The notes under the pieces: model-generated
The model's input: the letters and a program-made list of their open reading frames with translations, nothing else
What the model was told of the DNA's origin: nothing
The model's database searches: none
NCBI RefSeq assembly: GCF_022489035.1
Contig: NZ_JAKVTV010000001.1
Coordinates: 434,001-498,000 of the forward strand
DNA: 64,000 nucleotides
Direction: 5' to 3'
Origin: Christiangramia lutea
Lineage (GTDB): Bacteria; Bacteroidota; Bacteroidia; Flavobacteriales; Flavobacteriaceae
Shown here: positions 28,726-32,447 of the stretch, piece after piece
Numbering within the stretch: position 1 is the first letter of the stretch
Layout of the letters: each line of letters starts with the position of its first letter
Position numbers and translations under genes: made by a program

Positions 28726-29652
28726 CTATTCCTTTAAAAAGCTAATATTTCTTTTAAGCCCTTCATATTTAGTCCTTTTCACAGCCGATTTCCTGAATAT
28801 CTCATTAAAGGTTTCCCGGGTGATCTCTTCCCAGTCCTTTTTACTGTTTTCAAGTAAATCTGGATGCGGATTGAAAAGAGGTTCATTATGCGGTTTCGAG
28901 AACCGGTTCCATGGGCATACATCCTGGCATACATCACAACCAAACATCCAGTCATCGAACTGATCTTTGTATGAGTTTGGTAATTCATCCTTTAATTCTA
29001 TGGTAAAATAGGAGATACATTTACTTCCATCTACCTTGTAAGGTTCAACGATCGCATTGGTGGGACAGGCATCGATACAGGCGGTACAACTTCCGCAATG
29101 ATCGGTTACCGGGGTATCATATTCGAGGTCGAGGTCTACGATAAGTTCAGCAATAAAATAAAAGGACCCGGTTTGTTTAGAGAGAAGATTAGAATGCTTC
29201 CCTATCCAGCCTAGTCCGCTTTTTGCCGCCCAGGCTTTATCCAGCACCGGTGCGGAATCTACAAAAGCACGGCCATGAAAATCACCAATTTCATCCTGAA
29301 GCGTTGAAAGCATTTCCTTCAGTTTATCCTTAATTACAAAATGATAATCCCGGCCATAAGCGTATTTACTGATCTTATAAGAATCTTTATTCTGAAAATC
29401 TGATGGATAATAATTCAGGAGAAGGGAAATTACACTTTTAGACCCCGGGACCAGCTTTGTGGGATCAAGGCGTTTATCAAAATAATTTTCCATATAGCGC
29501 ATCTCCCCATGCATATTACTTTCAAGCCAATTCTCCAGACGTGGAGCTTCCTCTTCGAGAAATTCAGCTTTAGAAATTCCGCAGGAAAGAAAACCTAGGC
29601 GTTTAGCTTCGGCTTTAATAAGTTGAGTATTTTCCTCCCTATTTTGAAGCAT
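28726..29652 (-). CDS. queG: tRNA epoxyqueuosine(34) reductase QueG
   Basis: 308 residues. The cobalamin-binding N-terminal part is followed by two [4Fe-4S] clusters: [16 protein letters not shown] and [12 protein letters not shown]. QueG catalyses the last step of queuosine synthesis, reducing epoxyqueuosine to queuosine in tRNAs with GUN anticodons. The ATG overlaps the P450 stop by one base (TAATG), so the two genes are co-translated. The length is slightly short against enzymes with a C-terminal HEAT repeat, which this one appears to lack. Confidence 0.95.
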
Positions 29653-30989
29653 TATTTTCTTGATTCAAACTTTAAATGAGCATTTTTTGGTTTTAGCGTG
29701 ATAAGTGGTTTAATGTCTATCTCGTCCTGAATAGGGATCAGTTTATACCTACCAACAAGTTCAGTTACAGCGATGATCATCTCGAACATGGCAAAATTAT
29801 TCCCAATACATTTTCTTGGGCCCGCACCAAAAGGAAAGTACTGTGAAGAATATTTTCTTCCTCCTTCGGCAAATCTTTCCGGTTTAAAATCATCTGGATC
29901 CTTCCATAGATCTGGATGTCTATGAACTTCATGAAGAGAGAACAAAAGATTTGATCCCGGCTCAAAATATTTTCCCTCGAATTCGTCTTCCTCCAGGTTT
30001 ACGCGATCTATAAAATATGCCGGCGGGTATAACCTCATGGATTCTTCGATCACCTGTTGCGTATAATTGCATTGAGCAACGAAACTCATTTGATCAAGGT
30101 TCTGCACCTTTAATTCCGCAACTTCCTTATAGATCTTTTCCTGCCATTCAGGATTCAAAGCCAGCAATTGAGCTGTAAAAGTTAAAGAATTAGACGTGGT
30201 CTCATGCCCGGCAGTAAAAAGGATCAAAATTTCATCAATTAACTGCTTTTCATCCATAAAATTTCCATCGTCATATTTTGCTTCAAGCAACATATCCAGA
30301 AGGTCATCATGCCGTTCGTTGGAATCTCTTCTCTCCTGAACCATCGTTTTCAGAATGCTCCTGGCTTCAGCCGTAAGTTCCAGATATTCATCTATTTTTC
30401 CACTGGCTTTGAACCACCAGCCCAGGTATGGCTGCCTGAGTTCCTTCACAAGCATTTTCTGGGTTTCCTCGGTGATATATTGAAGTCTGTTGATCTCCTC
30501 CTGATTGGCCGCACTACTGAATAAAGATTTCACAACCGTTTGAAATGCAAGATCATTGAAAATCGGGAAAATATCGATTTCGTTACCAGTACTAATTCTT
30601 TTATATTCCGACAGAATTGCCTCTCTAATAGAATTCAGTAAATTCTCCAGCTGTTTTTTATGAAACGCAGGCTGAATCAATTTTCGTTGCTTTTTCCAGT
30701 GTTCCCCTTCAGAAGTTAGCAAGCCTTCGCCTACATATTTCACCAAGTCTTTAGTTTGGATCTCAGATTTTACAAAATTTCTCTGATTCTTCTGAAGGAC
30801 ATACTCCACCAGACCTGCATCCCGGGAAAAGATCACCGATTTATTAAATCCTATATTCAGCCTAAAGGTATCTCCTTTCTCCTCGAAGTTCTTATGATGA
30901 AAAGGAAGTGGATTTTTTAAAATATTGGCAGAATGCTTCAGGAATTTCAAGAGTGAAACTTCGGGAATTTTATTTTCTTTATTCTTCAA
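29652..30989 (-). CDS. Cytochrome P450
   Basis: 445 residues, soluble bacterial P450. Visible motifs: I-helix AGHETTSN, K-helix ExxR (ESMR, followed by [10 protein letters not shown]), and the heme loop [15 protein letters not shown] with the thiolate Cys near residue 393. The substrate is unknown; the sequence is more like fatty-acid/CYP102-type P450s than steroid enzymes, which is an impression only. The start is TTG at 30989 with no alternative ATG nearby. A REP-like repeat lies 14 nt upstream, and the queG start overlaps its stop. No ferredoxin or reductase gene is nearby. Confidence 0.92.
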
Positions 30990-31003
30990 AACTTGTGATT
31001 TAA

Positions 31004-31029
31004 GTCATGCTGAGTGCAGTCGAAGCATC
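31004..31029 (+). repeat. REP-like inverted repeat, copy 1
   Basis: The core CTGAGTGCAGTCGAAG is flanked by arms ATGCT/AGCAT (31007-31011 with 31024-31028). It shares the core with copy 2 on the opposite strand. It lies between the GIY-YIG stop and the P450 start. Confidence 0.75.
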
Positions 31030-31049
31030 TATGATTCAAAGGCATAAAT

Positions 31050-31364
31050 CTATTCAGGCTTATATTTATGATGAGTTGCATTTCTGCATTCAGCCAGGAT
31101 TTTTAAACGATCAAAATCTCCATCTACTAGTGATTGCTTTTTTAATCTCGACCAGCCTTTTAATTTCTTCTCATATACTATTGCTTGTATTACATCTTCA
31201 AATTTCTGAATGAATAGTAATTCAAGGGGTCTTCTTTTAAATGTATAGCAATTAAAATTGGCTCCAATATTATGTTCATTAAGTCTTCGCTCCAGGTCGT
31301 TCGTAAATCCTGTGTAAAAGGAACCGTCGTGGCATCTTAAAATATATACTAAGTACTGATCCAT
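31050..31364 (-). CDS. GIY-YIG family endonuclease (URI domain)
   Basis: 104 residues, a single GIY-YIG domain of the small stand-alone class. Active-site elements are present: VYIL and FYTGFT (the two tyrosine motifs), Arg in DLERRLNEHN, and the metal-binding Glu in VYEKKLKGW. Such proteins are predicted nucleases of unknown role, related in fold to UvrC and homing endonucleases. There is no extra DNA-binding domain. It lies inside paired REP-like repeats, which suggests that it acts on, or travels with, them. Confidence 0.88.
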   Translation of the reverse strand: MDQYLVYILRCHDGSFYTGFTNDLERRLNEHNIGANFNCYTFKRRPLELLFIQKFEDVIQAIVYEKKLKGWSRLKKQSLVDGDFDRLKILAECRNATHHKYKPE

Positions 31365-31386
31365 ATTAATAAAGATATAGATTCTA

Positions 31387-31413
31387 TTGCCTTCGACTGC
31401 GCTCAGGCTGACA
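31387..31413 (-). repeat. REP-like inverted repeat, copy 2
   Basis: Read on the minus strand it gives GTCAGCCTGAGCGCAGTCGA followed by AGGCA, matching copy 1 except in the arms and one core base. The arms (31389-31392 with 31405-31408) are GCCT/AGGC. Against copy 1 two base pairs changed on both sides, so the pairing is kept. It sits 8 nt from the ruvB stop. Confidence 0.75.
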
Positions 31414-31421
31414 CTTTAATT

Positions 31422-32447
31422 TTAAAATAAACCGCCTTGTGTGCTCCCCTTTATCCGGCCAAGATGTTTATAAGCATGTTCAGTCACCTCTCGACCACGC
31501 GGAGTTCTGTAAATAAAACCCTGCTGGATCAGAAATGGTTCGTAGACCTCTTCTATAGTTTCAGCGCTTTCACTAACTGCAGTAGCCAGGGTAGTGATTC
31601 CTACGGGGCCACCTTTAAATTTATCAATGATAGTTTCCAGAATCTTATTATCCATTTCATCAAGGCCATGCGCATCTACGTTAAGCGCCTTAAGTCCGAA
31701 TTTGGCAATTTCGATATCGATCTTTCCATTACCCTTTATCTGAGCAAAATCCCGAACCCTTCTTAACAAGGCATTAGCGATCCTGGGAGTTCCCCGGCTT
31801 CTTCCTGCAATTTCTATAGCTGCGTTCTGGTTAATGGGCACGTTCAATATACCTGCACTACGTTCTACAATACCCGAAAGTAATTCTGTTGAGTAATACT
31901 GAAGCCTGCTGGAAATACCAAATCTTGCCCGCATAGGAGCCGTAAGCAATCCTGAACGCGTTGTAGCACCTATAAGGGTAAAAGGATTCAAATTGATCTG
32001 TACGGTCCTGGCATTAGGCCCAGTTTCAATCATAATATCGATTCGGTAGTCTTCCATTGCAGAATACAAGTATTCCTCAACAATTGGACTCAATCTATGA
32101 ATCTCATCAATAAAAAGGATATCCCTTTCTTCAAGATTGGTTAGAAGTCCTGCCAAGTCCCCGGGTTTATCCAAAACAGGACCAGAAGTGATCTTAATTC
32201 CAACATTGAGTTCGTTGGCCAGGATATGCGCCAGGGTGGTTTTACCCAATCCCGGAGGACCATGAAATAATGTATGATCCAGGGCTTCACCTCTAAGGTT
32301 TGCCGCCTGAACAAAGACCAGAAGATTTTCCAGCACCTGCTCCTGACCCGCAAAATCGTCAAAGCTAAGCGGTCTTAAGGCTCTTTCAATATCAAATTCT
32401 TCGGCGGAAAAATTTTCACCGCTGGCATCGAGGTTCTCGTTCATCAT
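31422..32447 (-). CDS. ruvB: Holliday junction branch migration ATPase RuvB
   Basis: 341 residues with [11 protein letters not shown] at the N-terminus, Walker A GPPGLGKT (63-70), Walker [12 protein letters not shown], sensor/arginine-finger region ([18 protein letters not shown]), and a C-terminal winged helix ([13 protein letters not shown]). RuvB hexamers drive branch migration with RuvA (25710-26291). Two consecutive ATG codons make the start ambiguous by one residue. A TATCTTTG box 64 nt upstream suggests its own promoter. Confidence 0.96.

Follow-up and report, generated by a model that had tools for sequence, protein, structure and literature searches.

The closest described counterpart of the locus considered here is the RAYT/REP system, also known through TnpA-REP, REPtrons and REPINs. 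As far as the portions of the literature drawn on here go, it shares with the GIY-YIG system set out below a nuclease gene flanked by its own type of palindrome, an unpaired tag at the end of the hairpin, dimers that are often heterodimers, and many repeats per gene (PMC3733652, PMC8266576, PMC6006769). The same portions describe RAYT as binding single-stranded REP hairpins and cutting beside them, the GTAG tag being important (PMC8266576, PMC6006769). The parts themselves differ: RAYT/REP joins a Y1 HUH transposase to GTAG, whereas the GIY-YIG system joins a GIY-YIG nuclease to (C/T)GTC.

The second system to be compared is the CGTC-REP superfamily (Di Nocera et al. 2013), to which neisserial dRS3 and rickettsial RPE-4/6 belong; the sections of that survey used here report CGTC-REPs from Bacteroidetes and alphaproteobacteria, outward-tag dimers among them, and name as carriers Sinorhizobium meliloti, Azospirillum lipoferum 4B, Novosphingobium aromaticivorans and the genus Neisseria (PMC3733652). 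Those sections record no dedicated transposase and few, fortuitous gene associations (PMC3733652). CGTC-REPs, as described there, are like the present repeats in their CGTC/TGTC tag, their outward-tag dimers and a dRS3 array that holds a nuclease gene. Among the open-access PubMed Central papers listed for this subject, preprints excluded, none reported a link between GIY-YIG nucleases and REPs, and such a report may exist elsewhere.

The locus lies in the window, by which we mean the whole 64 kb stretch of Christiangramia lutea DNA that was analysed, and comprises the following features.

31050..31364, minus strand: GIY-YIG nuclease gene, 104 aa (ORF; Pfam PF01541, E 5e-18)
31390..31414, minus strand: REP on the 5' side of the gene, tag TGTC, stem GCCT/AGGC, tag outward (sequence)
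31004..31030, plus strand: REP on the 3' side of the gene, GTCA with A as the preceding base, stem TGCT/AGCA, GTCA outward (sequence)
31004..31414, no strand: tag-to-tag unit, 411 bp (comparison of ruvB–P450 gaps)
31422..32447, minus strand: ruvB, synteny neighbour (ORF; ruvB search of relatives)
29652..30989, minus strand: cytochrome P450 gene, neighbour on the other side (ORF; tblastn of the first part of the P450 against relatives)

The first-pass annotation had described a GIY-YIG gene between inverted repeats, in the order ruvB, unit, P450, queG, with stem arms that differ between the two copies; the arrangement, the order and the arm difference (GCCT/AGGC versus TGCT/AGCA) were all recovered, with coordinates within a few bases. 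We argue, with a probability of about 0.64, that the unit is a member of a widespread two-part system in which a UPF0213/SLX1-like GIY-YIG nuclease is partnered with its own palindromes of the CGTC-REP kind, much as RAYTs are with REPs.

The 3'-side repeat reads GTCATGCTGAGTGCAGTCGAAGCATCT (31004-31030, plus) and is separated from the 3' end of the gene by 19 nt, and the 5'-side repeat reads TGTCAGCCTGAGCGCAGTCGAAGGC (31390-31414, minus), 25 nt away from the start codon. Both inverted copies contain the core CTGAGYGCAGTCGAAG, with GTCA outermost in each and facing outward. The core pattern matches twice in the 64 kb window, i.e. only at the two repeats flanking the gene, and 14 times in the 3.47 Mb genome at up to two mismatches, against 0 for a reversed control pattern; exact matches number 5 in the genome versus about 0.001 expected from base composition. 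The same core adjoins, as a 5'-side repeat, the ruvB-linked orthologues in G001, G002, G003, G005 and G006. Counterparts of the 3'-side repeat lie downstream of the orthologues in G003, G005 and G006, with an altered copy (by eye) at that place in G001 and whole dimers in G002. The gene therefore does not stand at this locus with unrelated flanks in its relatives, an outcome that would have spoken against the idea of a cassette.

CGTC-REPs, in the sections of the survey used here, have stems of 8–9 bp and loops of 4–5 nt; the window repeats, folded alone as DNA, give stems of 5 and 4 bp with 12-nt loops and so fall outside that description, and one of the two fits the CGTC-REP tag, which is CGTC or TGTC/CCTC (TGTC at 31414, the other being AGTC at 31003). 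DNA folding gave the window hairpins no extra stability over shuffled sequences (z 0.30 and -0.15), the window gene did not match the strict tagged-hairpin pattern, and its flanks scored 29 in the inverted-repeat alignment, narrowly past the cut-off of 28. For these reasons the case for a putative hairpin at this locus is a comparative one. Rfam, at gathering thresholds, gave no match at eight loci.

The nearest solved relatives of the protein are the UPF0213 structures 1zg2 (E 4e-13) and 1ywl (E 1.5e-12), SLX1 being a weak match in the search of solved-structure sequences, and the E. coli protein YhbQ shares 31% identity with it over 77 residues. Y7, Y17, G19, R27, H31 and E65, which we take to include the catalytic GIY-YIG residues (Tyr, Arg, Glu), are identical in 163–166 of 166 aligned relatives. 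Judged by its domain and by the retention of these predicted catalytic residues, the window protein is UPF0213-like, resembling in sequence and in predicted active site the UPF0213/SLX1 nucleases YhbQ, BH0048, EF2693 and eukaryotic SLX1; NCBIfam, at E 0.01, offered no family for it. YhbQ is annotated in E. coli as a DNA damage response nuclease, and its gene differs from the window gene in that no such repeats were seen within 130 nt on each side. SLX1 is counted among structure-selective nucleases, in a family that includes YhbQ, in the portion of the source consulted (PMC7017083).

The pairing of gene and repeats was examined in two samples. Set A, drawn from the own genome and relatives of its order, began as 88 entries, became 75 near-intact GIY-YIG genes when fragments were dropped, and 69 when the six genes of a distinct small GIY-YIG clade were set aside; it left out the weakest search rows and a few stronger ones, e.g. 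G010:C144 and G033:C45. The genes of the distinct clade, at L012, L056 (two genes), L069, L076 and L084, are mostly without such repeats. Set B consists of 88 genes from 11 plasmid records, chosen from 33 for variety of organism, and from the best 80 loci of at least 586 stretches in named species genomes (95, then 91, then 88, as fragments and short flanks were dropped). The strict tagged-hairpin pattern fails on Bacteroidota types whose stems are bulged or short, and was absent from both sides of 36/75 genes in set A, the window gene included, and of 23/88 in set B; the main test was therefore a two-flank alignment, in which the upstream flank was aligned with the reverse complement of the downstream flank and a score of at least 28 was required.

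By this test inverted flanks were found at 39/75 genes in set A and 61/88 in set B, against 5/268 and 4/214 control ORFs, and against 88/1481 and 136/1307 when flanks were paired across loci. Long direct repeats span the gene in 51/75 and 44/88 cases, because the gene often sits between repeat dimers. When any of three signs (inverted repeats, direct repeats, two-sided tagged hairpins) is accepted as a call of flanking repeats, 63/69 genes of set A and 74/88 of set B carry them, against 6/254 and 12/90 control ORFs. Counted per separate neighbourhood the figures are 24/30 and 62/75, leaving 6/30 and 13/75 neighbourhoods without flanking repeats by these criteria. The GIY-YIG gene is paired with flanking repeats in many phyla, and the pairing noted at this single locus is both real and far more general than the window.

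Such figures might arise passively, if repeats simply collect in the roomy intergenic DNA where small genes live, and isolated control ORFs do sometimes score (3/71 and 8/46 in the controls, and 17/169 in 800 kb of two relatives). Several observations make this explanation very unlikely: the rate for nuclease genes is many times the control rate; in set A the two sides were of the same type in 40 of the 42 genes that allowed both to be typed; and the distinct GIY-YIG clade, drawn from genomes of set A, has flanking repeats at 2/6 genes and two-sided tagged hairpins at 0/6.

Among the tagged hairpins beside the gene, (C/T)GTC usually faces outward. Outward (C/T)GTC hairpins stand on both sides of 18/75 genes in set A and 35/88 in set B, as against 0/268 and 1/112 control ORFs; five scrambled tags gave 0–3 of 75 and 0–7 of 88, and GTAG-tagged hairpins, the RAYT kind, were outward on both sides of 0/75 and 0/88 genes. 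Inward (C/T)GTC hairpins were found on both sides of 4/75 and 12/88. When only the nearest tagged hairpin on each side is counted, both face outward in 20/75 (set A) and 29/88 (set B), both inward in 2/75 and 9/88, and one each way in 5/75 and 14/88, with no tagged hairpin by the strict pattern in 28/75 and 11/88.

The type of the palindromes follows the nuclease clade for several types, with T8 and T9 as exceptions. The own genome has four repeat types (T1, T2, T3 and T4) with four nuclease types. On a tree of 166 proteins, in which 65 genes are labelled 'none' and orthologues at shared places are included, repeat labels change 46 times compared with 93.8 after shuffling, none of 200 shuffles being as low. 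With 'none' left out, the 69 genes with typed repeats (set A at one gene per neighbourhood, set B unthinned) show 21 label changes versus 35.1 (lowest of 200: 32), and thinned set A alone shows 14 versus 20.2, with 0/500 as low. T8 and T9 do not cluster on the nuclease tree, and T11 hardly does. The type patterns of T2, T10 and T11 are near-palindromic, and orientations read from these patterns were left out of account.

This correspondence bears on the idea that the nuclease is a domesticated host factor, which binds or trims REP hairpins as DNA cruciforms or RNA while another enzyme spreads the repeats, the flanking copies then being recognition marks, perhaps for autoregulation, with no part in mobility. 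In its favour, the genes of the genus are mostly inherited in shared places, and the related YhbQ (31% over 77 residues), a nuclease annotated to the DNA damage response, has no repeats within 130 nt. Against it stand the tracking of nuclease clade by repeat type, the different palindrome beside the genome's one Y1_Tnp match, and the few, fortuitous transposase associations noted for CGTC-REPs in the relevant sections of Di Nocera et al. (PMC3733652). On balance we regard a host factor of this kind as unlikely.

A Y1 transposase as the partner of these repeats in the own genome was considered and rejected, the sole Y1_Tnp match being adjoined by a different palindrome. At that locus (L021, G000:C1:649967-653317) the palindrome CCTCACAGGTTT..AAACCTGTGAGG directly follows the stop codon, with at least a partial copy at the start of the frame, and a similar palindrome fills the ruvB–P450 gap in G012, G015, G016 and G017; it may be the RAYT repeat of the genus.

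The history of the window locus can be followed through ruvB, which was found at 93% identity or more in 23 of 24 genus genomes. Among these 23 loci the ruvB–P450 gap holds a GIY-YIG gene with repeats in 6, a decayed unit in 2 (G013, and G023 by reading of the DNA), repeat-like remnants alone in 2 (G004, G022), 63–144 nt of other sequence in 6, and is clean, at 1–15 nt, in the remaining 7. In the window it measures 432 nt, of which the unit occupies 411, so that the 21-nt remainder comes near the length of the clean gaps. In the G002 gap (L103, L025), tandem repeat dimers of about 120 nt flank the gene (by eye), and the dimer units include stretches resembling the nuclease gene's 3' tail, as either deletion derivatives or tandem duplicates.

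The first-pass annotation had spoken of a candidate mobile cassette and had proposed that such gaps in close relatives be compared for empty sites. Empty sites do exist, in the 7 clean gaps, with insertion borders whose ends are not resolvable to the base, the relatives being too diverged. The cassette idea is nonetheless only partly supported, because inheritance in place prevails in the genus: most typed GIY-YIG genes there lie in shared neighbourhoods, and it is the repeats that are dispersed. Six of the seven T1-typed genes in set A are orthologues at ruvB, and the occupancy of this site would therefore reflect either one old event followed by losses or a few events. A comparison of 400 kb between G003 and G005 gave 23 repeat matches, merged to 17 G005 sites, of which 14 had collinear anchors; by eye, a repeat of the same type is kept in G003 at 5 of these and not at 9, the two genomes being about 80% identical, at which distance insertion borders cannot be fixed.

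The two ends of the unit differ in a set way in the T2 type. In 9/9 T2 genes the 5' stem is ACCC or ACAC and the 3' stem ATGC or ATGA, 8 of the 9 genes with compared ends sharing one neighbourhood. The arm difference in the window had been put down to compensatory pairs; the paired changes are present, and the regular T2 difference between 5' and 3' ends, with its one dominant neighbourhood, argues that they are not merely compensatory drift. Gene-free dimers with tags outside were heterodimers in 21/21 cases, comprising 13 T2 dimers (counted with 8–26 nt between repeats) and 8/8 T1 dimers, of which a single place in G002 contributed three. Among the T2 dimers ACCC with ATGC is the most frequent (5/13) and matches the ends of T2 genes, and the gene-free dimer thus resembles the gene-bearing unit minus the gene. 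MITEs with an autonomous parent offer the parallel, in that the ends of the T2 gene-free dimers are the types found at the ends of the T2 gene unit; the likeness draws on few independent cases, since 8 of the 9 genes share a neighbourhood.

In the CGTC-REP description dimers with outward tags predominate; here, neighbouring pairs within 60 nt at the loci examined were 13 outward and 12 inward for T2, and 8 outward, 2 inward and 2 same-way for T1. Two cases, A. lipoferum and G002, depart from the picture of a gene inside a dimer: complete dimers stand on either side of the gene, which is not itself enclosed in one. The own genome also has a mixed dimer of one T1 and one T2 repeat with tags outward (L004:1460-1556, C1:1294493; by eye), and in the T2 repeats at G005:C1:641523 and 642057 a nested hairpin, CTCCCGAAG.ATCGGGACAG, replaces the ordinary loop (by eye).

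The fixed difference between T2 left and right stems also bears on another possible function, that of transcription terminators insulating a small gene, for which palindromes near both gene ends would be suitably placed. For the window palindromes this reading was rejected, no terminator-like site having been found in 30900-31500, and repeats far outnumber genes, as with the 64 T2 copies in the own genome; as a general account, terminators are scarcely credible.

In the genus, where 24 genomes were compared, high repeat numbers are found mainly in genomes that have GIY-YIG genes, contrary to the worry that genomes with the repeats would usually lack such a gene. Copies of T1, T2 and T3 together number 6–125 in 18 genomes with nuclease genes versus 0–22 in 6 without (Mann-Whitney p 4e-4, a test that ignores kinship), and T2 copies number 23–64 in 8 genomes with a T2-clade gene versus 0–68 in 16 without (p 0.002, again ignoring kinship). 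By type, the number of T1 copies is tied to the ruvB-linked gene (p 0.004) and shows no dependence on the T2-clade gene (p 0.11), both among genus genomes and with kinship ignored. There are exceptions: G006 and G004 have 68 and 57 T2 repeats with no matching-clade gene detected, and G014 has 21 repeats with no such nuclease gene detected.

Outside the Bacteroidota, plasmid matches include S. meliloti, A. lipoferum 4B, N. aromaticivorans and N. gonorrhoeae. On plasmid AZO_p3 of A. lipoferum 4B (L122:1992-2285) a GIY-YIG gene, flanked left and right by dimers of CGTC repeats, parts sufB from sufC, which in A. ramasamyi, A. oryzae and strain B510 (about 96% identity) lie 87–129 nt apart with no gene or repeats between them. 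In N. gonorrhoeae (L123:2007-2291, NZ_CP119140.1; outside set B and read by eye) the nuclease gene lies inside a dRS3 array, a copy of which begins 2 nt past the stop codon, and no annotated feature overlaps the stretch in an incomplete gene table. Folding gives the copies from A. lipoferum and N. gonorrhoeae stems of 8 bp and loops of 4 nt, in agreement with the CGTC-REP description.

The plasmid loci also bring up the possibility that the nuclease is selfish or defensive and that the REPs serve it as self-marks for protection. Restriction enzymes can contain GIY-YIG domains, and a Planktothrix plasmid copy lies between two restriction/defence genes. That neighbourhood was seen at 1 of the 11 plasmid loci examined, the window unit is without a modification gene and the repeats relate to the gene's own ends, so that a defensive role appears highly improbable.

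Returning to the two-part system, we infer by analogy that the GIY-YIG family may be the missing partner of CGTC-REPs, acting on them as RAYTs do on GTAG REPs; the steps beyond gene–repeat pairing, cleavage and movement included, are likewise ones that we infer. The nuclease would recognise the folded, tagged palindrome, both in the flanks of its own gene and in dispersed copies, and would nick it next to the tag. Since each strand carries a single 5'-tagged hairpin, one per end, a pair of nicks would cut different strands, one at each end of the unit, and the unit would be doubled as a whole by fill-in followed by rejoining. Tandem nuclease genes, e.g. three within 1.4 kb in G012, and the tandem dimers of G002 fit such doubling. 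Displaced copies could be captured by host repair at breaks elsewhere, with gene-free dimers as MITE-like passengers. This would be a RAYT/REP-like way of working in which an unrelated hydrolytic nuclease replaces the Y1 transposase; no covalent protein–DNA step is expected of GIY-YIG chemistry, unlike that of Y1 HUH enzymes. Even odds seem right to us for the further possibility that these tiny elements, delimited by tagged hairpins, are a mobile system of a new class, that a GIY-YIG nuclease moves them with the help of host repair, and that their gene-free dimers are what is seen as CGTC-REPs in Bacteroidota, alphaproteobacteria, Neisseria and other phyla.

The 2013 survey that defined the widespread CGTC-REPs left their enzyme open, in the sections used here (PMC3733652). 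If the reading proposed here is true, the dRS3 arrays, the rhizobial REPs and the repeats of Bacteroidota would share one explanation, and the orphan half of the REP world would gain an enzyme, as a convergent counterpart of RAYT/REP. REP systems would then have arisen at least two times, from unrelated nucleases.
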